Assembly (NCBI RefSeq): GCF_002735305.1
Contig: NZ_PDYG01000019.1
Location: 1 to 34,075 of the forward strand
Origin: Agathobacter ruminis
GTDB lineage: Bacteria > Bacillota > Clostridia > Lachnospirales > Lachnospiraceae
DNA length: 34,075 nt
Reading direction: 5' to 3'
A program made the position numbers and the translations under genes. Numbering within the stretch: position 1 is the first letter of the stretch; each line of letters starts with the position of its first letter. The notes under the pieces were generated by a model. The model saw only the letters and a program-made list of their open reading frames with translations. It did not search any database and was not told where the DNA came from. Below are positions 3,168 through 15,336 of the stretch, piece by piece.

Positions 3168-3641
3168 ATGAAAGAAATCAATTTACTCGAAGGCAAACTT
3201 GTCGCAAAAGAAGGAATGAAGGTGGCGATTGTCGCTTCCAGATTTAACGAGATTATCGTCAACAAATTGTTGGGCGGAGCTGTGGACGGTCTGGTGCGCC
3301 ATGGCGTGCAGGAGGACAATATCACTGCAGCCTGGGTTCCGGGAGCGTTTGAAATCCCTACCGTAGCACAGAAACTGGCCATGAGCGGCAAATATGATGC
3401 CATTATTTGTCTTGGCACGGTAATTCGGGGGCAGACATCACACTATGATTATGTCTGCAACGAAGTTTCAAAAGGCATTGCACAGATTTCTCTGCAGCAA
3501 CATATGCCGGTGCTGTTTGGAATCGTAACGACAGAGAATATTGAACAGGCAATTGCAAGAGCCGGAAGCAAGGCAGGAAACAAGGGGTATGACTGTGCAC
3601 TGTCCGCAATCGAGATGGTCAATCTTATGGAACAGATTTAA
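3168..3641 (+). CDS. ribH: 6,7-dimethyl-8-ribityllumazine synthase RibH
   Basis: This enzyme condenses the butanone phosphate with the ribitylamino-pyrimidine; the family forms pentamers or 60-subunit capsids. Recognisable motifs are [14 protein letters not shown], and [14 protein letters not shown] with the catalytic histidine. The length of 157 aa is typical. AAGGAG lies eight bases before the ATG. It is the last riboflavin gene. No GC-rich terminator follows in the first 80 bases, so the operon may end at the hairpin at 3772-3818 in the amt leader. Confidence 0.96.
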
Positions 3642-3726
3642 AAATCTTAATAAATCATGGAAGAAAGTTTTTAAAATTATGTTTTGAAAAGAAAAAATTA
3701 ATTTAATAAGCAAATTGAAAGATGAC

Positions 3727-3763
3727 TTGACGAACAGACCGGGGTCAAGTAGAATTCATAGCC
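3727..3763 (+). promoter_or_regulatory. Promoter of the nitrogen-assimilation operon with inverted repeat
   Basis: TTGACG (3727-3732) is separated by 17 bases from TAGAAT (3750-3755), a good sigma-A promoter that would start RNA near 3762. An inverted repeat, ACTTGAC (3725-3731) and GTCAAGT (3744-3750), overlaps the -35 box and reaches the first base of the -10 box, so it may be a protein-binding operator. The RNA would begin immediately before the hairpins of the leader. Confidence 0.6.
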
Positions 3764-3766
3764 ATG

Positions 3767-3820
3767 AAGACAAAGGCGTCTTGGAGAACTTCTGAAAGAA
3801 GAACTCTGAGGCGCTTTTTC
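3767..3820 (+). terminator. Intrinsic terminator / putative attenuator in the amt leader
   Basis: A long hairpin pairs 3772-3793 with 3797-3818. Twenty of 22 positions pair, several as G-U, with one AA/AA internal loop and a GAA loop. The T run is at 3815-3819. A smaller hairpin, AAGAC/GTCTT with hexaloop AAAGGC (3767-3782), uses the same left arm and cannot coexist with it. No promoter is visible between the T run and the amt start at 3871, while a good one lies upstream, so this terminator most likely sits inside the amt transcript and controls it. It may also end the riboflavin transcript. Confidence 0.65.
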
Positions 3821-3870
3821 TGTTTTGGGCCCGAAGCAGACAAATAATGAAGTGCGAGAGGAGAAAGCAT

Positions 3871-5589
3871 ATGAATGAACAAGTATTTAGCGTTTGGTTT
3901 TTGATCGGCGCAGCATTGGTATTTTGGATGCAGGCCGGATTTGCAATGTGTGAAGCCGGATTTACAAGGGCAAAGAATACAGGAAATATCATTATGAAGA
4001 ATCTGATGGATTTCTGTATCGGAACGGTTGTCTTTATTTTAATCGGTTTTGGATTGTTTTTGGGAGAAGATCTCGTAGGATTCATCGGAAAACCGGGATT
4101 CGATATTTTCAGCAATTATGCGGATTTCGACTGGTCGAATTTTGTTTTTAATTTAGTTTTTTGTGCGACTACGGCAACAATTGTTTCCGGATCAATGGCA
4201 GAGCGTACGAAGTTTTTATCGTACTGTGTCTATTCGGCCGTGATTTCCGCAATCATTTATCCGGTGGAAGCGCATTGGACATGGGGAGGCGGCTGGCTTT
4301 CCCAACTCGGCTTCCACGATTTTGCAGGTTCCAACTGTATCCACATGGTCGGCGGTATTTCGGCTTTGATCGGAGCAGCAATTCTTGGACCTCGTATTGG
4401 CAAGTATGAACGAGATAAGAGCGGTAAGGTAACAAAAGTAAATGCATTCCCGGGACATAATCTCGTGGCAGCATCACTTGGCGTATTCATCCTCTGGCTT
4501 GGATGGTACGGATTCAACGGTGCAGCCTGCACCTCTGTAGAACAGCTTGGCAGTGTGTTTGTGACAACCACCATTGCTCCGGCACTCGCAACTGTAACAT
4601 GTATGATTTTCACCTGGATCAAATATAAGAAGCCGGATGTATCAATGTGTCTGAATGCATCTTTGGCAGGACTGGTAGCAATCACAGCACCATGTGATGC
4701 GGTTGATGCATTGGGTTCTATTATCATCGGTATTGTTGCCGGACTTTTGGTTTGCTTCGGAGTATGGTTCCTGGATTACAAGCTTCATGTGGATGATCCG
4801 GTAGGTGCTGTCGCAGTACATTGCTTAAACGGAATCTGGGGTACACTTGCTGTCGGCTTATTTGCAACATCCAGTGCACCGGGATATTCCATCGCCGATG
4901 CATCCGGAAACCAGCTTGTAGGATTGTTCTATGGCGGCGGATTCAAACTCCTTGGAATTCAGGCACTCGGAATGCTTGCAACAGCAGCATGGACCGTTGT
5001 GACAATCGGCATTACATTTTTTGCAATCAAAAAGATTATGGGACTTCGTGTCAGCGAAGAGGAGGAAATCCTCGGTCTGGATGAGACAGAGCATGGCCTT
5101 GCATCTGCTTATTCAGGATTTGCAATCATGGATGTATCAAATACATTGAACATGTCAATCAATGAAAATACAGACATTGGAGTAGACGATTATGATGCAG
5201 CAGTTCCGGTTGTATCTGCACCGGTACCTGGTTCGAATATTTACAAAGTTGTTATTATTGCAAAGCTTTCCCGCTATGACAAGCTGCGTCGTGCAATGAA
5301 TGAACTCGGTGTCATGGGAATGACGGTAACCCAGGTAATGGGATGCGGTGTTCAGAAGGGCTCCGGAGAAATGTATCGTGGAGTAGAAATGGATGCGACT
5401 CTGCTTCCTAAGATTAAATTGGAAGTGGTTGTTAGCAAGATTCCGGTATCGGATGTCATTGATGCTGCCAAGAAGGCACTTTACACCGGACATATCGGAG
5501 ATGGAAAGATTTTTGTATACAGCCTTGATAATGTTGTGAAGATCCGTACCGGAGAGGAAGGACCTGCAGCACTTGCAGATGTTGAATAA
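3871..5589 (+). CDS. amt: Ammonium transporter fused to a PII signalling domain
   Basis: The N-terminal part (about 1-400) is an Amt channel with 11 expected membrane helices. It shows the pore histidines H158 (SNCIHMVGG) and H317 (VAVHCLNG), FHDFAG near the first, and the conserved tail LRVSEEEEILGLDETEHG. After an acidic, proline-containing linker, residues about 456-572 form a PII (GlnB/GlnK) domain whose T-loop reads VQKGSGEMYRG. The tyrosine uridylylated in E. coli GlnB (position 51) is replaced by M507, so uridylylation there is not possible. I start at 3871, where AGAGGAG sits seven bases upstream; an in-frame ATG at 3847 lacks this. It leads the operon into asnB, 12 bases on. The fused PII probably blocks its own pore according to ATP/ADP and 2-oxoglutarate. 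Confidence 0.93.
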   Translation: MNEQVFSVWFLIGAALVFWMQAGFAMCEAGFTRAKNTGNIIMKNLMDFCIGTVVFILIGFGLFLGEDLVGFIGKPGFDIFSNYADFDWSNFVFNLVFCATTATIVSGSMAERTKFLSYCVYSAVISAIIYPVEAHWTWGGGWLSQLGFHDFAGSNCIHMVGGISALIGAAILGPRIGKYERDKSGKVTKVNAFPGHNLVAASLGVFILWLGWYGFNGAACTSVEQLGSVFVTTTIAPALATVTCMIFTWIKYKKPDVSMCLNASLAGLVAITAPCDAVDALGSIIIGIVAGLLVCFGVWFLDYKLHVDDPVGAVAVHCLNGIWGTLAVGLFATSSAPGYSIADASGNQLVGLFYGGGFKLLGIQALGMLATAAWTVVTIGITFFAIKKIMGLRVSEEEEILGLDETEHGLASAYSGFAIMDVSNTLNMSINENTDIGVDDYDAAVPVVSAPVPGSNIYKVVIIAKLSRYDKLRRAMNELGVMGMTVTQVMGCGVQKGSGEMYRGVEMDATLLPKIKLEVVVSKIPVSDVIDAAKKALYTGHIGDGKIFVYSLDNVVKIRTGEEGPAALADVE

Positions 5590-5601: not shown

Positions 5602-7185
5602 ATGTGCGCAATACTAACTTATGCGGATGCGGAAATATCCGGTGAAGTGTTTGAAGAATTGTTGAACCGGACACATTCGCGTGGACCGGATATGTCCCGA
5701 ACAGAGAAAACCGGTGCAGGATGGCTCGGCTTTAACCGTCTGGCGATTATGGGATTGAATGAAGCCGGAATGCAGCCGTTTTCATATCGAAAGCATAAGG
5801 TGGTTTGCAACGGAGAGATTTACGGATTCAAATATTTAAAAGAATATCTGAAGAATCTCGGAGAACATTTTGTGAGTGAAAGTGATTGTGAAATACTGTT
5901 GCCGTTGTATGAACGTTTGGGGTGCAAAATGTTTGCACTCCTGGATGCGGAATTTGCATGTGTGATTTATGACGGTGACAGAAACTGCTTTGTTGCAGCG
6001 CGTGATCCGATTGGAATTCGTCCATTGTATTACGGCTATGACAAAGCAGGAGCAATCCTGTTTGCATCTGAACCAAAGAATCTGGTCGGAGTGTGCGACA
6101 AAATCATGCCGTTTCCGCCGGGACATTATTATGACAACGGCGAGTTTGTTTGCTATCGCGATATGACCGAGGCAAGGCAAAAGGCGGATTCGGATCTCGA
6201 TGCAATCACAGAACAGATTCATGACAAGCTGTGTCGTGGAATTGAAAAGAGACTGGAGGCCGATGAGAAGGTTGGATTTCTTCTCTCCGGAGGATTGGAT
6301 TCTTCGCTGGTATGCGGCGTGGCTGCCAGACTGGCAGATCATCCAATCGAAACATTTGCAATCGGAATGGATGAGGATGCAATCGATTTGAAATATGCAA
6401 GAACCGTTGCAGACTACATTCACAGTAACCATCATGAGGTGATAATCAGCAGACAGGATGTCATCGATGCACTGGAACCGGTGATTGCAGCACTGGGTAC
6501 CTATGATATTACAACCGTGCGAGCATCAATCGGTATGTATCTGCTTTGCAAATGGATTCATGAAAATACGGATATCAAAGTGGTTTTGACCGGAGAAATT
6601 TCGGATGAAATCTTTGGATATAAATATACAGATTTTGCGCCGTCGGCAGAAGCATTTCAGGAGGAAGCGCAAAAGCGTGTGCGTGAGCTTCATATGTATG
6701 ATGTGCTTCGTGCAGATCGCTGTATCAGCGTAAATTCACTCGAGGCCCGTGTACCGTTTGGCGATTTGGATTTTGTGGATTATGTAATGGCAATTGATCC
6801 GGAAAAGAAGCGGAATCATTATGGAATCGGCAAATATCTGTTGAGAAAAGCCTTTGAAAAAGATGCGGTGATTCCACATGAGATTTTGATGCGCGAGAAG
6901 GCAGCATTTTCGGATGCGGTAGGCCATTCTCTGCGAGATGATCTCATCGATTATGCGCAAAGCAGATACAGTGACATGGAATTTGAAGAAGCATGCAGGA
7001 AATATTCTCATGCGACACCGTTTACGAAGGAATCGTTGCTGTATCGTGAACTGTTTGAACAATATTATCCGAATCAATCACAGATGGTGGTAGATTTTTG
7101 GATGCCAAATAAATCGTGGGAAGGATGTAATGTCAACGATCCTTCGGCACGTGTACTTTCAAATTACGGATTATCCGGACAATAG
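5602..7185 (+). CDS. asnB: Asparagine synthetase, glutamine-hydrolysing
   Basis: This enzyme makes asparagine from aspartate, ATP and glutamine amide nitrogen. Cys2 directly after the start Met is the class II amidotransferase nucleophile after Met removal, and the glutaminase domain shows RGPD, NGEIYG and later RDPIGIRPLYYG. The synthetase domain has the pyrophosphate-binding loop SGGLDSS at 229-235 and TGEISDEIFGY. The length of 527 aa is near the E. coli AsnB length. AGGAGG lies just after the amt stop. Its place between amt and glutamine synthetase ties asparagine formation to ammonium capture. The stop codon overlaps the start of the next ribosome binding site (TAGGAGGA). Confidence 0.94.
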   Translation: MCAILTYADAEISGEVFEELLNRTHSRGPDMSRTEKTGAGWLGFNRLAIMGLNEAGMQPFSYRKHKVVCNGEIYGFKYLKEYLKNLGEHFVSESDCEILLPLYERLGCKMFALLDAEFACVIYDGDRNCFVAARDPIGIRPLYYGYDKAGAILFASEPKNLVGVCDKIMPFPPGHYYDNGEFVCYRDMTEARQKADSDLDAITEQIHDKLCRGIEKRLEADEKVGFLLSGGLDSSLVCGVAARLADHPIETFAIGMDEDAIDLKYARTVADYIHSNHHEVIISRQDVIDALEPVIAALGTYDITTVRASIGMYLLCKWIHENTDIKVVLTGEISDEIFGYKYTDFAPSAEAFQEEAQKRVRELHMYDVLRADRCISVNSLEARVPFGDLDFVDYVMAIDPEKKRNHYGIGKYLLRKAFEKDAVIPHEILMREKAAFSDAVGHSLRDDLIDYAQSRYSDMEFEEACRKYSHATPFTKESLLYRELFEQYYPNQSQMVVDFWMPNKSWEGCNVNDPSARVLSNYGLSGQ

Positions 7186-7195
7186 GAGGAAAAAG

Positions 7196-9301
7196 ATGGA
7201 AGCTAGTAAATTGACAGAAGAATTTGGTTGTTTGGTATTTAACGACAAGGTGATGCGTGAGCGCCTTCCGAAGGACACCTATAAGGCTGTCCACAAGACC
7301 ATTGAGAAAGGAACACATCTTGAACTCGATGTGGCAAACTGCGTTGCCGCAACCATGAAAGAGTGGGCAATCGAGAATGGTGCCACACATTTCACACACT
7401 GGTTTCAGCCGATGACCGGTTTGACCGCAGAGAAGCATGACAGTTTTATCTCTCCTTGTGAGAACGGAACCATTATTATGGAATTTTCGGGAAAAGAACT
7501 GGTGAAAGGGGAACCGGATGCGTCGAGCTTCCCTTCAGGCGGTTTGCGTGCAACCTTTGAGGCGCGCGGATATACAGCATGGGATCCTTCTTCACCTGCA
7601 TTTATCAAGGACGGATCGTTGTACATTCCAACCGCATTCTGTTCTTACGGCGGAGAAGCACTTGACAAGAAGACTCCGCTTTTGCGTTCCATGGAAGCGC
7701 TTTCCCAGGAAGCAGTGAAAGTATTGCATGCACTTGGTTATAAGGATGTGCAGCGCGTCAATACCACAATCGGTTCTGAACAGGAATACTTCCTCATTGA
7801 TAAGGAATATTACAAGAAGAGAAAGGATCTGCTTTTCACCGGCAGAACGCTGATCGGTGCACCGGCAACAAAGGGACAGGAGATGGAGGATCATTACTTT
7901 GGTGTGATCAAGCCAAAGGTATCCGCATATATGCACGATCTCGATGAGGAATTATGGAGACTCGGCATTCCGGCAAAGACAAAGCACAACGAGGTGGCTC
8001 CGTCACAGCATGAACTTGCACCTGTTTTTGAAACCGCAAATATCGCGGTGGACCACAACCAGCTGACGATGGAAGTGATGAAGAAAGTTGCGGACAAGCA
8101 TAATTTCGCCTGCCTCTTACATGAAAAGCCATTTGAGGGAATCAATGGTTCGGGAAAGCATAACAACTGGTCTGTATGTACCGATACAGGTATGAACCTG
8201 CTCGATCCGGGGAAGAATCCGGGCGAGAACATTCCGTTTTTGGTATTCCTTATGGCAGTGATTGCGGCAGTGGATGAATATGCACCAATTCTTCGTCTGT
8301 CTGTTGCTTCTGCAGGCAATGACCATCGACTTGGCGGAAATGAGGCACCACCTGCAATTATTTCCATCTTCGTAGGAGACGAACTTGCAGATTTATTAAA
8401 GAGTGTGGAAGAAGGTCAGGCTTATCAGAGCGCGGGAAAAGTACAGATGGCTATGGGCGCAACTGTACTGCCACACTTCACAAAGGACAATACAGATAGA
8501 AACCGTACATCTCCATTTGCATTTACCGGAAACAAATTTGAGTTCCGTATGCCGGGTTCCGCAGTATCTGTTGCAAACGCAAATATCGTATTGAATACAG
8601 CGGTGGCAGAAGAATTGACACGCATTTACGAGAAACTGGAATCCTATAAGGGAGACGATCAGAAAGCATTTGTCCTTTCCATGTTGCAGGATATTTTAAG
8701 CAAGCATAAGAGAGTGTTGTTCAACGGAAACGGATATACCGAAAGCTGGGTAGAGGAAGCTGCAAAGCGCGGACTGTTGAATCTGAAGTCTCTTCCGGAT
8801 GCAATGCCATATTGGATCAAAGAAGAATCGGTTGAACTCTTTACCAAACATCATATTTTTACAAAAGAGGAATTGTATTCACGCTATGAGATTTTGCTTG
8901 AAAATTATGCAAAGTCCATCCATATCGAATCTTTGACCATGCAGGAAATGGTACGCAAAGATTTGACCGAAGGCCTGATTGCATATCAGAACGATTTGAG
9001 CCATGAGGCAATGCAAAAGAAGCAGCTTCTGTCAGCAAGCGCCTGCACCATGGAGCTGTCCCTTCTCGAAAAACTGGATGCGGCAGGAACTGCAATGCAG
9101 GAAGCTTTGGAAAAACTTGCAGGAGATACACAGCTTGCGGAACAGAAAGAGGATGGACTTGAGACTGCACAGTTCTATCAGCAGACAATTCTTGCGGATA
9201 TGGATGTATTGCGCAAATATGCCGATGAGGCAGAAGCATTGATTCCGGAGAAGTATCTGAGCTATCCGACCTACGGCCAGATGTTATTCTCTTTGCGTTA
9301 A
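7196..9301 (+). CDS. glnN: Type III glutamine synthetase
   Basis: This enzyme joins ammonium to glutamate using ATP. At 701 aa it is far larger than GSI and matches the type III class of Bacteroides and Clostridia. Recognisable parts are the GSIII-like stretch SSFPSGGLRATFEARGYTAWDP, the glutamate/metal-binding region GSEQEYFLI, the ATP-site NGSGKHNNWS, and AGNDHRLGGNEAPPA. The start at 7196 follows GGAGGA by five bases; the frame is open further upstream, but that part overlaps asnB and lacks a site. It is the third gene of the nitrogen operon. The C-terminal helical region (about residue 600 onward) is usual for this class. Confidence 0.95.
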   Translation: MEASKLTEEFGCLVFNDKVMRERLPKDTYKAVHKTIEKGTHLELDVANCVAATMKEWAIENGATHFTHWFQPMTGLTAEKHDSFISPCENGTIIMEFSGKELVKGEPDASSFPSGGLRATFEARGYTAWDPSSPAFIKDGSLYIPTAFCSYGGEALDKKTPLLRSMEALSQEAVKVLHALGYKDVQRVNTTIGSEQEYFLIDKEYYKKRKDLLFTGRTLIGAPATKGQEMEDHYFGVIKPKVSAYMHDLDEELWRLGIPAKTKHNEVAPSQHELAPVFETANIAVDHNQLTMEVMKKVADKHNFACLLHEKPFEGINGSGKHNNWSVCTDTGMNLLDPGKNPGENIPFLVFLMAVIAAVDEYAPILRLSVASAGNDHRLGGNEAPPAIISIFVGDELADLLKSVEEGQAYQSAGKVQMAMGATVLPHFTKDNTDRNRTSPFAFTGNKFEFRMPGSAVSVANANIVLNTAVAEELTRIYEKLESYKGDDQKAFVLSMLQDILSKHKRVLFNGNGYTESWVEEAAKRGLLNLKSLPDAMPYWIKEESVELFTKHHIFTKEELYSRYEILLENYAKSIHIESLTMQEMVRKDLTEGLIAYQNDLSHEAMQKKQLLSASACTMELSLLEKLDAAGTAMQEALEKLAGDTQLAEQKEDGLETAQFYQQTILADMDVLRKYADEAEALIPEKYLSYPTYGQMLFSLR

Positions 9302-9346: not shown

Positions 9347-12300
9347 ATGAAAACTTGGATGAATGACCACGATGCCTGTGGAATCGGAGCGGTAATTAAT
9401 ATTGATGGACATGCGGATCATCGCGTCCTGGATGATGCACTTTCGATTGTTGAAAAACTGGAACATCGTGCAGGAAAAGACGCAAGCGGAAAAGTCGGCG
9501 ATGGTGTTGGTATTCTGGTTCAGATTTCACATGATTTTTTTGCACGCAAGGCAAAAGAAATCGGGATTGAATTAAAAAATGCCGGGGATTACGGAATCGG
9601 TATGTTTTATCTGCCACAGGATGCCATGAAACGAATGTTTGCCAAGCGAATGCTCGAAGTGATTGCACAGAAAGAAAATCTGCATGTGCTTGGCTGGCGT
9701 GATGTGGAAATTCATCCGGAAATCCTGGGCGAGGCGGCAAAAAATTGTATGCCTTATATCAGCCAATGCTTCATTGAACGACCGGAAGATGCAGAAGCAG
9801 GTATGGCATTCGAGCGCAGACTTTACTGTCTGCGACGCGAGTATGAAAAGTCGTCAGAGGATACGTATATTTGTTCTTTTTCTTCAAGAACCATCGTATA
9901 TAAGGGAATGTTTCTGGTTGGACAGCTGCGCCGCTTCTATGAAGATTTGATGGAGGAAGATTATAAAACTGCCATTGCACTTGTGCATAGCCGTTTCTCG
10001 ACCAATACCACTCCGTCATGGCAACGCGCACATCCATACAGAATGATTGCCCATAATGGTGAAATTAATACCATTCGCGGTAACAGTGACCGTATGCTTG
10101 CCCGTGAGGAGACCATGTCTTCTGAAGTGTTCGGAGGAGAACTCGGAAAGGTATATCCTGTCATCGCTTCGTCCGGATCGGATTCGGCGATGCTCGATAA
10201 CACGCTGGAATTTTTGTATATGAACGGCATGCCGCTTCCGCTGGCAATGATGCTGACGATTCCGGAGCCGTGGACACACAACGATTTCATGGCGCAGGAA
10301 CGAAAAGATTTTTATCATTATTATGCGACAATGATGGAACCGTGGGACGGACCGGCAGCAGTCCTGTTCACGGATGGAGAATTGTTTGGTGCAACCCTGG
10401 ATCGAAACGGGTTGCGACCTTCCCGTTATTATGTGACAAAAGACGGACGCCTGATTCTGGCGTCCGAAGTTGGCGTTCTCGACATTCCGGATGAACTGAT
10501 CGAATGCAAATCCCGCCTGTCACCGGGACATATGCTTTTGGTTGATACCGTAGAGGGCAGAATCATTTCGGATGAAGAATGTAAAGAGAGATATGCAAAG
10601 GCAAAGCCATACGGGGAATGGCTTGATCGCTATTTGCTGAAGCTGGATCAGCTGAGTATACCGAATCGCAAAATTCCGACCCATTCACAGGAAATGCGCG
10701 ATAAATTATATAAAGTATTCGGTTATTCCTATGAGGATGTGAAAGAGCAGATTCTGCCGATGGCAATGAATGGGGTAGAACCAACTGTGTCGATGGGAAC
10801 CGATGTACCGCTTGCGATGCTGTCCGGACACCATCAACCGCTGTTTTGCTACTTCAAGCAGCTGTTTGCGCAGGTGACGAATCCGCCGATTGATTCGCTG
10901 CGTGAGAAAGTCGTAACAGATACAACTGTATATATCGGTTCGGATGGAAATCTCTTAAAAGAAAAGAGTGACAATTGCCGTGTGCTTGAAGTGCAAAATC
11001 CGATTTTGACCGGTGTGGATCTGATGAAAATGGAAGCATTGGACCAGCCGGGATTTCGCGTGAGAAAAATTTCGCTTTTGTATTACAAGAATACGCCGGT
11101 TGAGCGTGCACTCGAACAGTTGAATGTATCGGTGGATCGTGCTGTGGCAGATGCAGTGAATATTATTATTTTGTCAGACCGTGGTGTGGACGAAAACCAT
11201 ATGCCGATTCCATCGCTCCTGGCGGTATCATCCGTGGAGCAACATTTGGTGCAGACCAAGCGCAGAACCGCAGTGTCAATCATTCTCGAGAGTGCGGAGC
11301 CACGAGATGTACATCAGATTGCAACGCTGCTTGGCTTTGGTGCCCGCGCGATTCATCCGTATCTGGCTCATGAATGCATTTCCGAACTGATTGATATCGG
11401 AATCCTTGACAAGGATTATCATACTGCAATCAAAGATTACAACAAGGCGCTTTTGGGAGGCGTTGTCAAAATTGCAGCCAAGATGGGAATCTCAACCTTA
11501 CAGTCGTATCAGTCTGCGCGTATTTTTGAGGCAATTGGTTTGTCTCAAAAGTTTGTGGACCGCTATTTCACCGGAATTACCAGCCGTGTGGGCGGCATCG
11601 GAATCGAAGAAATCGGAGAGGATGTGGAATTGCGTCATAATCGCGCATTTGATCCGCTTGGCTTACCTACAGAGACCGGCCTTGATTCCATCGGATTCCA
11701 CTCTTTAAGGAACGGTGATGACAAGGAAGATCATATGTATAGTCCGAAGACAATTGTGACACTTCAGCGCGCTGTGCGTGAAGGTGATTACGAGCGATTT
11801 AAAGAATATGCACAGATGGTTGATGATGAAAACCGGCCGCATACATTGCGTGCCCTGCTTTCGTTCGTTCCGGCGAAGAAACCGGTTCCGATTGAGGAGA
11901 TTGAATCGGAGGACGAAATCGTGAAGCGTTTCCAGACCGGAGCAATGTCTTATGGTTCATTGTCAAAAGAGGCGCATGAGACACTGGCCATTGCAATGAA
12001 CAGACTTGGTGGCAAATCCAATACCGGAGAAGGCGGTGAGGATGTTGCGCGCTTCGGAACAGAGCGCAACAGCGCAGTAAAACAGGTGGCGTCCGGAAGA
12101 TTCGGTGTGACAAGCCGATACCTCCAGAGCGCATCCGAAATTCAGATTAAGATGGCACAGGGCGCAAAGCCGGGTGAAGGTGGTCATTTGCCGGGAAAGA
12201 AGGTCTATCCATGGGTGGCCGGAACACGATTTTCAACTCCGGGTGTGGCATTGATTTCGCCTCCGCCACATCATGATATTTATTCCATCGAAGATCTGGC

Positions 12301-13852
12301 ACAGTTGATTTATGACTTAAAAAATGCGAATGACCGCGCAAGAATTTCGGTAAAACTCGTATCGGAAGCAGGTGTCGGAACCATTGCATCCGGCGTTGCA
12401 AAAGCCGGTGCACAGGTAATCCTGGTGTCAGGTTATGACGGAGGAACGGGAGCTGCTCCGTCTTCATCGGTACATCATGCGGGACTGCCATGGGAGCTTG
12501 GCGTCAGCGAAGCACATCAGTCGCTGATGGACAATGGATTGAGAAGCCGCGTGGTACTTGAAACAGACGGAAAATTAATGACCGGTCGTGATGTTGCCAT
12601 CGCAGCTTTGCTTGGAGCGGAAGAATTCGGTTTTGCAACCGCACCGCTTGTATGTATGGGCTGTATGATGATGAGAGTGTGCTCAAAAGATACCTGCCCT
12701 GTCGGAATTGCAACGCAGAATGAAACATTGCGTAAGCGTTTCTGCGGCAAGCCGGAATATGTAATGAATTTCATGCACTTTGTTGCGAGACAACTGCGCG
12801 AAATCATGAGCGAACTGGGATTTAGAACCGTGGAAGAAATGGTGGGTCATACCGATTCGCTGTGCATGCGCAGTGTGCCGAAAGCGCGCTGCAAGGATGC
12901 TGCAGATTTGAGTCGTATCCTGGATCAGAAATATGCAGGCCGCACAGATACCCATTTTGACAGCAAGGCTGCATATAATTTTGAACTGGAAAAAACACTC
13001 GATGCAAAAGTATTGATCCCGGCCTATGAAAAATTTAAGAAAAATACAAGTGCGGGACCGCTGAATCTTTCGGTGGAAATATCAAGTACAGACAGAAGCT
13101 TCGGCACATTGTTGGGCAGTAAAGTGACAGCGGATTTTGCAGACAGCCTTGCGGATGACAGCATTTGCGTCTGTGCACACGGCGGCGGTGGCCAGTCCTT
13201 TGGCGCATTTTTGCCGAAGGGAGTGACACTGCGTCTCGACGGTGATGCAAATGACGGATTCGGAAAGGGCCTGTCCGGTGGAAAACTGATTGTGAAACCG
13301 TCCGATTTGGCAACTTATCCGGCACATGAAAATATTATCATCGGCAATGTGGCACTTTATGGTGCAACAGCCGGAAAGGCCTATGTTTGCGGAATTGCAG
13401 GGGAGCGATTCTGTGTACGTAATTCCGGTGCGGTTGCCGTCGCAGAAGGCTGCGGTGATCACGGACTGGAATATATGACCGGAGGTCGTGCTGTGATTCT
13501 GGGCATGACAGGAAAGAATTTTGCGGCCGGCATGAGCGGCGGAATTGCCTATGTACTCGACCGTGAGCATACCCTTTATCTGCGCATGAACAAGGATATG
13601 GCATCACTTTGCGAGGTGACGGAAAAGTATGATATCGCAGAATTGCGACAGATTATCGAAGATTATGTAAAAGAAACCGGTTCGCAGTTTGGCCGGGAAG
13701 TCCTGGATCATTTCGAAGATTACATTCCGGACTTCAAAAAGATTGTACCGAATGATTATCAGAAGATGCTGACAGCAATCAGTAAGTATGAGGAGCAGGG
13801 CATTGATTATGAGCATGCGGTGCTCGAAGCATTCAAAGAACTGACAGAGTAA
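9347..13852 (+). CDS. gltB: Glutamate synthase large subunit
   Basis: This subunit transfers the glutamine amide to 2-oxoglutarate, giving two glutamates. The first ten residues form a short propeptide; C11 (CGIGAV) becomes the N-terminal nucleophile after cleavage. The glutaminase domain is followed by the central and FMN-binding domains (PGEGGHLPGKKV, GYDGGTGAAPSS), the 3Fe-4S ligands C1106, C1112 and C1117 (spacing C-x5-C-x4-C), and the C-terminal beta-helix with repeated glycine motifs. The length of 1501 aa is standard. The nearest Shine-Dalgarno, AGGAAGG at 9328, is a little far from the ATG. gltD follows after 17 bases. Confidence 0.96.
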   Translation: MKTWMNDHDACGIGAVINIDGHADHRVLDDALSIVEKLEHRAGKDASGKVGDGVGILVQISHDFFARKAKEIGIELKNAGDYGIGMFYLPQDAMKRMFAKRMLEVIAQKENLHVLGWRDVEIHPEILGEAAKNCMPYISQCFIERPEDAEAGMAFERRLYCLRREYEKSSEDTYICSFSSRTIVYKGMFLVGQLRRFYEDLMEEDYKTAIALVHSRFSTNTTPSWQRAHPYRMIAHNGEINTIRGNSDRMLAREETMSSEVFGGELGKVYPVIASSGSDSAMLDNTLEFLYMNGMPLPLAMMLTIPEPWTHNDFMAQERKDFYHYYATMMEPWDGPAAVLFTDGELFGATLDRNGLRPSRYYVTKDGRLILASEVGVLDIPDELIECKSRLSPGHMLLVDTVEGRIISDEECKERYAKAKPYGEWLDRYLLKLDQLSIPNRKIPTHSQEMRDKLYKVFGYSYEDVKEQILPMAMNGVEPTVSMGTDVPLAMLSGHHQPLFCYFKQLFAQVTNPPIDSLREKVVTDTTVYIGSDGNLLKEKSDNCRVLEVQNPILTGVDLMKMEALDQPGFRVRKISLLYYKNTPVERALEQLNVSVDRAVADAVNIIILSDRGVDENHMPIPSLLAVSSVEQHLVQTKRRTAVSIILESAEPRDVHQIATLLGFGARAIHPYLAHECISELIDIGILDKDYHTAIKDYNKALLGGVVKIAAKMGISTLQSYQSARIFEAIGLSQKFVDRYFTGITSRVGGIGIEEIGEDVELRHNRAFDPLGLPTETGLDSIGFHSLRNGDDKEDHMYSPKTIVTLQRAVREGDYERFKEYAQMVDDENRPHTLRALLSFVPAKKPVPIEEIESEDEIVKRFQTGAMSYGSLSKEAHETLAIAMNRLGGKSNTGEGGEDVARFGTERNSAVKQVASGRFGVTSRYLQSASEIQIKMAQGAKPGEGGHLPGKKVYPWVAGTRFSTPGVALISPPPHHDIYSIEDLAQLIYDLKNANDRARISVKLVSEAGVGTIASGVAKAGAQVILVSGYDGGTGAAPSSSVHHAGLPWELGVSEAHQSLMDNGLRSRVVLETDGKLMTGRDVAIAALLGAEEFGFATAPLVCMGCMMMRVCSKDTCPVGIATQNETLRKRFCGKPEYVMNFMHFVARQLREIMSELGFRTVEEMVGHTDSLCMRSVPKARCKDAADLSRILDQKYAGRTDTHFDSKAAYNFELEKTLDAKVLIPAYEKFKKNTSAGPLNLSVEISSTDRSFGTLLGSKVTADFADSLADDSICVCAHGGGGQSFGAFLPKGVTLRLDGDANDGFGKGLSGGKLIVKPSDLATYPAHENIIIGNVALYGATAGKAYVCGIAGERFCVRNSGAVAVAEGCGDHGLEYMTGGRAVILGMTGKNFAAGMSGGIAYVLDREHTLYLRMNKDMASLCEVTEKYDIAELRQIIEDYVKETGSQFGREVLDHFEDYIPDFKKIVPNDYQKMLTAISKYEEQGIDYEHAVLEAFKELTE

Positions 13853-13869: not shown

Positions 13870-15336
13870 ATGGAAAATGCAATTAGAAACAGAACCATTT
13901 CACCACAGGAGCGAATCCTTAACTTTGATGAATTTCATAAACCTCTTGAACATGATGTTCGAATTGAACAGGCGGGTCGGTGCATGAATTGCGGTGTCCC
14001 TTTTTGCCAGTCGGCGATGAATCTGAGCGGAATGGTGACAGGATGCCCGCTGCACAATCTGATTCCGGAATGGAACGGAGAAATCAGTTGTGAGCATGAT
14101 GCACATGCATTTTCACGATTGCAAAAGACCAGCAATTTCCCGGAATTCACGGGGCGTGTCTGTCCGGCATTGTGTGAAAAAGCATGCATGTGCGGGCAGA
14201 GCGGAGACGCGGTTACCATCCATGACAATGAACTATATCTGGTTGAACAGGCCTTTGAAAAAGGCTATATCAAACCACGAATCCCCGCAATCCGCAGTGG
14301 AAAGCGTGTGGCGGTCATCGGAAGCGGTCCTGCAGGGCTGGCTGTGGCCGACACATTAAATCACAGAGGCCATGTCGTAGATGTCTATGAGCGTGAGGAC
14401 GAAGTCGGAGGTCTTCTGATGTATGGCATTCCGAATATGAAGCTCGACAAATCCGTGATTCGCCGTCGTCGCAGTCTGATGGAAAAAGAAGGCGTTCGCT
14501 TCCATACCGGCTGTAATGTCGGTATGGACCGGGAACTGGACGAAAGACTAAAAGAATATGATGCGCTGGTCTTTTGCTGTGGCGCAAAGCAGGCACGCAT
14601 GCTTGATACAGCAGATCCTGCGAAGGTAAAGAATATTATTCCCGCAGTCGAATTCCTGACACAAACCACGAAAGCACTGATGAAAGCACCGGATCATACG
14701 GTTGCTTCCTTTAAGGAAACCGGCGGTTATATCAATGCGGCCGGCAAACATGTGGTGATTGTCGGCGGTGGTGATACCGGAAATGACTGTATCGCAACCG
14801 CAATCCGTCATGGGGCAAAGTCCGTCACCGCACTTGAGATGATGCCAAAGCCTCCGAAGGAGCGCCTGGCTTCAAATCCGTGGCCGGAGTGGCCGAAGAT
14901 CGAGAAAGTCGATTACGGTCATGAGGAGTCCATCTATGTCTTTGGCAGGGATCCCCGCGTCTATGAAACCACAATTAAGCGTGTGATTCCGGACAAAAAA
15001 GGTGCCATCAAACAAATCGAAACTGTACAGGTTTCTTTTGCAAATGGCAAACCGGAATATGTGGAAGGAACCGAGAAGACCATTCGATGTGATCTGCTTT
15101 TGATTGCAGCAGGCTTCACCGGTTGCGAATCCTATACAGTGGATGCGTTTTCCATCAAATGCGGTCCGCGCAATACCGTTGCAACCGCACCTGATTCATA
15201 TCGTATCCCGGATACCAAATACTTCGCCGCAGGCGATATGCACCGGGGCCAGTCTCTCGTGGTCTGGGCTATCGCAGAAGGACGCGCCTGTGCCCGCGAA
15301 GTGGATACCTATCTCATGGGTTATACCAATTTATAA
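13870..15336 (+). CDS. gltD: Glutamate synthase small subunit
   Basis: This subunit supplies electrons from NAD(P)H through FAD and 4Fe-4S clusters to GltB. The N-terminus has the cysteine-rich cluster region C38, C41, C46 and C59, followed by [12 protein letters not shown]. The FAD-binding motif [13 protein letters not shown] and a second nucleotide-binding motif [12 protein letters not shown] follow, and the protein ends with the usual [18 protein letters not shown]. The length of 488 aa is typical. AGAGGA lies upstream of the ATG. It is the last gene of the nitrogen operon, which is followed by the hairpin at 15349-15385. Confidence 0.96.

Follow-up and report, generated by a model that had tools for sequence, protein, structure and literature searches.

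Targets of ANTAR antiterminators have been described as two hexaloop hairpins, with A at the first and G at the fourth loop position, separated by a short linker (PMC3369931). In Agathobacter ruminis, the leader of an amt gene in the window (the whole 34,075-nucleotide stretch of DNA analysed here) has a single hairpin of this kind, overlapping a transcription terminator. This raises the question of whether a lone hexaloop can serve as the switch of a nitrogen operon. The sequence-only reading had proposed such a switch, built from a promoter, an AAGAC-AAAGGC-GTCTT hexaloop and a terminator exclusive with it, and had regarded the missing second hairpin as its weak point. We consider it probable, at roughly 0.8, that the amt-PII/asnB/GSIII/gltB/gltD operon is attenuated by a single hexaloop at the 5' end of its RNA, with a NitR-like ANTAR protein acting as the antiterminator. 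The relevant features are:

3727..3732, + strand: -35 box TTGACG (sequence check; promoter scan 10/12)
3750..3755, + strand: -10 box TAGAAT, after a 17-nt spacer, its 3' edge 11 nt from the hexaloop stem
3767..3782, + strand: putative antiterminator hexaloop hairpin AAGAC-AAAGGC-GUCUU, comprising AAGAC (3767-3771), AAAGGC (3772-3777) and GUCUU (3778-3782) (sequence, covariation, folding)
3772..3819, + strand: intrinsic terminator with the U run UUUUU at 3815-3819 (folding, covariation)
3871..5589, + strand: amt, ammonium transporter fused to a P-II domain (Pfam PF00909, PF00543)
5602..7185, + strand: asnB, asparagine synthase B (NCBIfam NF006949, above cut-off)
7130..9301, + strand: type III glutamine synthetase (Pfam GSIII_N; ORF as listed, the true start being probably further in)
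9347..13852, + strand: gltB, glutamate synthase large subunit (NCBIfam NF008730, above cut-off)
13870..15336, + strand: gltD-like ORF (by eye)

The promoter, hexaloop and terminator that had been proposed are all present, between a ribH-like ORF and amt (3871), and folding and covariation agree with them. The RNA of the amt operon would start near 3762 from the sigma-A-type promoter at 3727-3755. The loop and right arm of the hexaloop (3772-3782) are at the same time the 5' arm of the terminator. Folded as the terminator, the leader (3762-3824) reaches -26.3 kcal/mol, a stability that none of 200 shuffles equals (z = -4.42), against -3.2 kcal/mol for the isolated hexaloop. The two structures are mutually exclusive, because enforcing the hexaloop shifts the leader (3762-3821) from -25.5 to -11.4 kcal/mol, a cost of about 14 kcal/mol; the median cost is 14.8 kcal/mol in the 177 of 212 pooled elements (defined below) with a stem of at least 4 bp. 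With the terminator better by about 14 kcal/mol, termination is the energetic default, and read-through therefore needs a factor that holds the hexaloop. In the loop AAAGGC the first base is A and the fourth is G, as in dual-hexaloop ANTAR targets, and, like those targets, the hairpin overlaps and excludes a terminator. SELEX with NasR returned two stem-loops with a C:G closing pair, A at position 1 and G at position 4, a single hairpin being bound about 12-fold worse (PMC7496416); the closing pair in the window, C3771-G3778, is likewise C-G. Rfam had no match to the window that reached the gathering score, and none to 3600-3900 even with E raised to 5. Separately, an inverted repeat, CTTGAC-N12-GTCAAG (3726-3749), spans the -35 box and most of the spacer, and may be a chance occurrence or an operator.

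Conservation in amt leaders had been proposed as a check of this arrangement, and both the hexaloop and the terminator pairings proved to be kept, with compensatory changes in each. The set comprised 81 leaders, from the window and 80 fetched amt relatives, the nearest named of which, among the matches listed, are from Butyrivibrio (87-89% identity). A search requiring the loop core and a downstream terminator but leaving the stem free (search 1) yielded 72 elements in 61 of the 81 leaders, with stem pairing in register at 100, 99, 76 and 69% for the four positions beyond the selected closing pair; no slid register of these elements showed high pairing at all four positions. By this strict rule 20 of the 81 leaders lack an element (an earlier stem-based rule had found 53/81); among these 20, hexaloops are visible by eye, though uncounted, in L007, L029, L048, L059, L075, L078 and L080. 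A search requiring a stem of at least 5 bp and terminator overlap while ignoring loop sequence (search 2) recovered 46 six-base loops, in 40 leaders, versus 9, 4, 5, 15 and 8 loops of 4, 5, 7, 8 and 9 bases; 38 of the 46 combine A as the first loop base with G as the fourth, and 41 have a C-G closing pair. In the 61-sequence alignment A1, 65 hexaloop cells are altered on both sides as against 20.7 in shuffles, 87.5% of the cells are paired, and two-sided changes are seen in four of the five pairs; the remaining one, the closing C-G, is set by the search rule. The terminator, with 91.9% pairing, also covaries. Since the rule of search 1 already prescribes a C-G pair closing the loop, A as the second loop base and G as the fourth, the constancy of all three in alignment A1 is uninformative, and the loop preference is taken from search 2. 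The stems range over forms such as AAGAC/GUCUU, AAAGC/GCUUU, AUAAC/GUUAU and AACGC/GCGUU; the loop varies much less. Another form, GAUGC-AAUGGG-GCAUC, is found upstream of amt in L003-L006, L026 and others; its entire hexaloop hairpin, left arm included, lies within the 5' arm of the terminator, and it is sometimes the second member of a tandem.

Our search models were R1 for the terminator and R2 for the hexaloop. R1 gave 12 matches in the genome of A. ruminis itself, of which only those in the window, at C10:20151 and at C126:23782 (minus strand) have a hexaloop, the rest looking like plain terminators; R1 alone being too permissive, R2 was used. The top R2 match in this genome, C126:23782 (L084, G000:C126:23782-23825, minus strand), was rejected as probably a plain terminator with a hexaloop-like flank; it lies directly after a RelA-like gene (by eye) and before convergent genes. 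Pooling 216 elements from the amt leaders, the genus (52 of 56 rows plus one from the own genome) and the class (91 of 122 rows), less two duplicates and two that failed the loop/stem rule, gave 212. The genus and class elements were found with models trained on the amt-leader elements, and their hexaloops are partly so by construction; the genomes compared are related, and the counts are not independent.

Across this pool, the second hexaloop is absent from nearly the whole family. One lies 0-25 nt upstream in only 7 of the 212 elements, as against 5.6 in shuffles, and none in the window; a planted second hexaloop was recovered in 165 of the 212. The earlier observation of a single hexaloop in the window thus stands, but its standing as a weakness does not, for the second is missing from almost all of the family. 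A promoter scoring at least 9/12 is present upstream of 141 of the 212 elements (32 in shuffles), and in 111 of these 141 a gap of 4-14 nt separates the end of the -10 box from the stem. At this distance, the RNA is expected to start at the stem or a few nucleotides before it, and the RNA ahead of the stem is too short to favor a second hexaloop there. Upstream hexaloops with C-G closing show a small excess (5/212 versus 1.4 shuffled with stems of at least 3 bp; 3/212 versus 0.5 with at least 4 bp), which suggests that a few true dual motifs exist. One amt leader, L209 (G063:C7:2111-2155), has a likely true dual hexaloop, with GAUGC-AACGAG-GCAUC a few nucleotides upstream of the element, and so provides, within one family, a natural contrast between one hairpin and two. 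Tandem arrangements of another kind also occur: L163 and L199 (G114:C5:49297-49503) belong to three tandem single-hexaloop attenuators, starting at 49297, 49381 and 49463, each paired with a separate terminator and all ahead of an ABC-transporter-like gene, and other leaders have two or three in tandem. Taken as a whole, the family looks like a large class of single-hexaloop, 5'-terminal attenuators of the ANTAR type.

The genes that follow the elements are largely nitrogen genes. The scan took in the 135 distinct ones among 137 first genes, all of them following elements. These include 44 type III glutamine synthetases (GSIII), 15 Amt, 10 AsnA, 6-7 type I glutamine synthetases, 7 ABC ATPases, 6 circularly permuted ATP-grasp proteins, 5 family 3 solute-binding proteins, 5 class II amidotransferases, 4 PucR and 3 GATase_7, along with individual families, such as ATP synthase A, DegV and MCP, that have no obvious nitrogen role. 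The presence of elements before the genes for circularly permuted ATP-grasp proteins (6 of the 135 first genes, behind L113, L116, L117, L125, L139 and L154) suggests a nitrogen role for these proteins. Within the own genome, the plausible element at C10:20151 precedes a PucR-like gene, and that at C10:24126, 4 kb further on (E 0.074, 4-bp stem), precedes an ABC-transporter-like gene (by eye).

Is there a protein that could hold the hairpin? The sequence-only reading had proposed looking for an ANTAR gene in this genome, and there is one match (E 1e-15, above the Pfam cut-off; L002:7116-7655, minus strand), encoded directly after glnA, with PF03861 and the adjacent Gln-synt both detected by Pfam. 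No Response_reg match was found in its N-terminal part with Pfam at E 0.001, a departure from the receiver of the EutV type. In the PDB it resembles Rv1626, AmiR, NasR and EutV; relative to EutV, with the register counted by hand, the positions placed at Arg142 and Met172 are kept and His replaces Tyr164 (roles of these positions from PMC8934654). No element was found in front of this glnA-nitR pair. Of 292 genomes sampled from the class, 85 match the element at E 0.01 and 152 match ANTAR; ANTAR is present in 80 of the 85 element genomes versus 72 of the 207 element-free ones (Fisher p 9e-23, odds ratio 30, with the kinship of the genomes ignored). Conversely, five of the 85 element genomes are devoid of an ANTAR match and 72 of the 152 ANTAR genomes of an element match. 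In the genus, where 53 of 62 genomes have an ANTAR match, the link is weak: elements occur in 31 of the 53 and in 3 of the 9 ANTAR-free genomes, one of these three having a loop without G at position 4 (the genus match in G032 is of this kind). At least 36 of the 122 class element rows, among the matches listed, lie within 10 kb of an ANTAR gene, a figure that counts both strands of one place (G101:C5) and includes C126:23782. Most class elements that have an ANTAR gene nearby lie on the other strand from it, and the gene is then found upstream, at about 2 or 5-8 kb; a smaller group shares its strand with an ANTAR gene some 2 kb downstream, as with elements that precede glnA-nitR. The identification of the hairpin as an ANTAR target is hence upheld by its loop and closing pair, the co-occurrence across the class and the nitrogen genes downstream.

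Putting together these sequence-derived observations, we posit that the ANTAR protein probably turns the operon on via a hairpin switch in the leader. The operon would be transcribed from the sigma-A-type promoter, the first part of the RNA to emerge being the 16-nt hexaloop hairpin, whose loop and 3' arm double as the 5' arm of the terminator. By default, the much stronger terminator would form and RNA polymerase would halt near 3819. When nitrogen is short, the NitR-like ANTAR protein, whose gene lies beside glnA, would bind and hold the hexaloop; this would block the terminator and allow the operon to be read through. Its target would be one 5'-terminal hexaloop, the upstream hairpin known from dual-hexaloop ANTAR targets being absent. 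The RNA start, the binding by the NitR-like protein, the direction of control and the low-nitrogen signal are what we infer here, and the operon, as originally suggested, would be switched as a whole by antitermination.

Other readings of the same data can be weighed against this one. It is unlikely that the attenuator is real but depends on a different RNA-binding protein, or on a ligand, to stabilise its hexaloop: the five element genomes without an ANTAR match and the weak association within the genus would fit such a stabiliser, yet the loop rules match those of ANTAR targets, and both the co-occurrence with ANTAR genes and their neighbourhood extend across the class. We think it similarly unlikely that the leader is a usual dual-hexaloop ANTAR target, its first hairpin having been missed or being located further upstream. 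The GAUGC-AACGAG-GCAUC hairpin of L209 and the slight C-G-closed excess upstream point that way, but upstream hexaloops hardly exceed their number in shuffles, the window has none although planted ones are mostly recovered, and the distance from the -10 box to the stem is 11 nt in the window and similarly short in most elements with a good promoter.

An ordinary terminator between ribH and amt, with the hexaloop arising by chance from its A-rich flank, would be in keeping with the plain terminators of the same genome that score with the terminator model and for C126:23782, which scores even with the hexaloop model. We regard this as quite improbable, given that the left arm, which is not part of the terminator core, changes in concert with the right arm, that the A tract is interrupted by the C-G closing pair, and that the hairpin sits just behind a promoter rather than behind a gene end. 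Finally, the position of the repeat at the expected RNA start, just downstream of the promoter, might be that of a DNA operator; however, it is the non-palindromic loop that is kept and the arms that change freely in compensating pairs, which is the opposite of the operator pattern. Variable stems with a far less variable loop favor an RNA element, and we give the operator almost no credence.

Returning to the single-hexaloop antiterminator, we think it likely, albeit with less confidence than for the operon itself, that many Clostridia control a nitrogen regulon via a distinct class of ANTAR attenuators, in which one hexaloop at the 5' end suffices, and that the second 'recruitment' hairpin of the EutV and NasR targets is no general requirement of ANTAR proteins. 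The published need of EutV for two hexaloops and the weak binding of NasR to one count against single-hexaloop antitermination; affinities of 3-12 uM have been reported for these two proteins on single hairpins (PMC8934654, PMC7496416). Two genome surveys, PMC3369931 and the actinobacterial PMC8164766, in which only dual stem-loops were kept, demanded two hexaloops and would therefore have missed a single-hexaloop regulon. It has been asked why there are two hairpins if the dimer touches only one (PMC8934654), and a natural, promoter-proximal single-hexaloop family makes this question directly testable. Further, the family supplies a model with which to search Lachnospiraceae of the gut and rumen, as well as other Clostridia, for their nitrogen regulons, and it places little-known genes, such as those for the circularly permuted ATP-grasp proteins (6/135 first genes), under likely nitrogen control.

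In the openly readable text of the literature searched, neither a single-hexaloop ANTAR attenuator nor a leader structure of a NitR target was found, and single hexaloops are treated there only in PMC8934654, as binding sites. In the structure reported in that work, an EutV dimer is bound to one hexaloop, and the minimal binding motif was therefore redefined as one; two hexaloops are nevertheless still held necessary for antitermination, and single sites are expected where no transcribing polymerase imposes a time limit, with EutX and certain RNAs of M. tuberculosis as possible cases (PMC8934654). The sequence features of this minimal motif are present here, and its binding side is predicted. 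With the dual-hexaloop leaders (EutV/eutP, NasR/nasF, AmiR/amiE; PMC3369931, PMC7496416, PMC8934654) the amt leader shares A and G at loop positions 1 and 4, the C-G closing pair, the exclusion of a terminator and the nitrogen genes. Those leaders have two hexaloops with a short linker, both of which are needed (deletion of P1 or an altered linker length impairs eutP induction; PMC3369931), whereas the amt leader has one, at the predicted RNA 5' end; as it fails the dual-hexaloop criterion, we term it a single-hexaloop variant rather than a member of the dual family. On the protein side, the tie to glutamine synthetase genes recalls NitR of Clostridium saccharobutylicum, an ANTAR protein reported to act as an antiterminator and to be induced when nitrogen is limiting (PMC6316151), a likeness drawn from the ANTAR domain and the glutamine synthetase neighbour. 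As in AmiR, the ANTAR domain follows a receiver-like part in which no phospho-acceptor domain is recognised; AmiR is restrained by AmiC and has amides as its signal (PMC8934654, PMC3369936). In terms of its logic, the proposed switch resembles the RAT of the BglG/SacY-LicT systems in having one protein-stabilised hairpin that overlaps a terminator, the protein here being predicted; the RAT differs in being a 29-30 nt element, recognised by another protein family and located before sugar genes (PMC3369931, PMC3369936).
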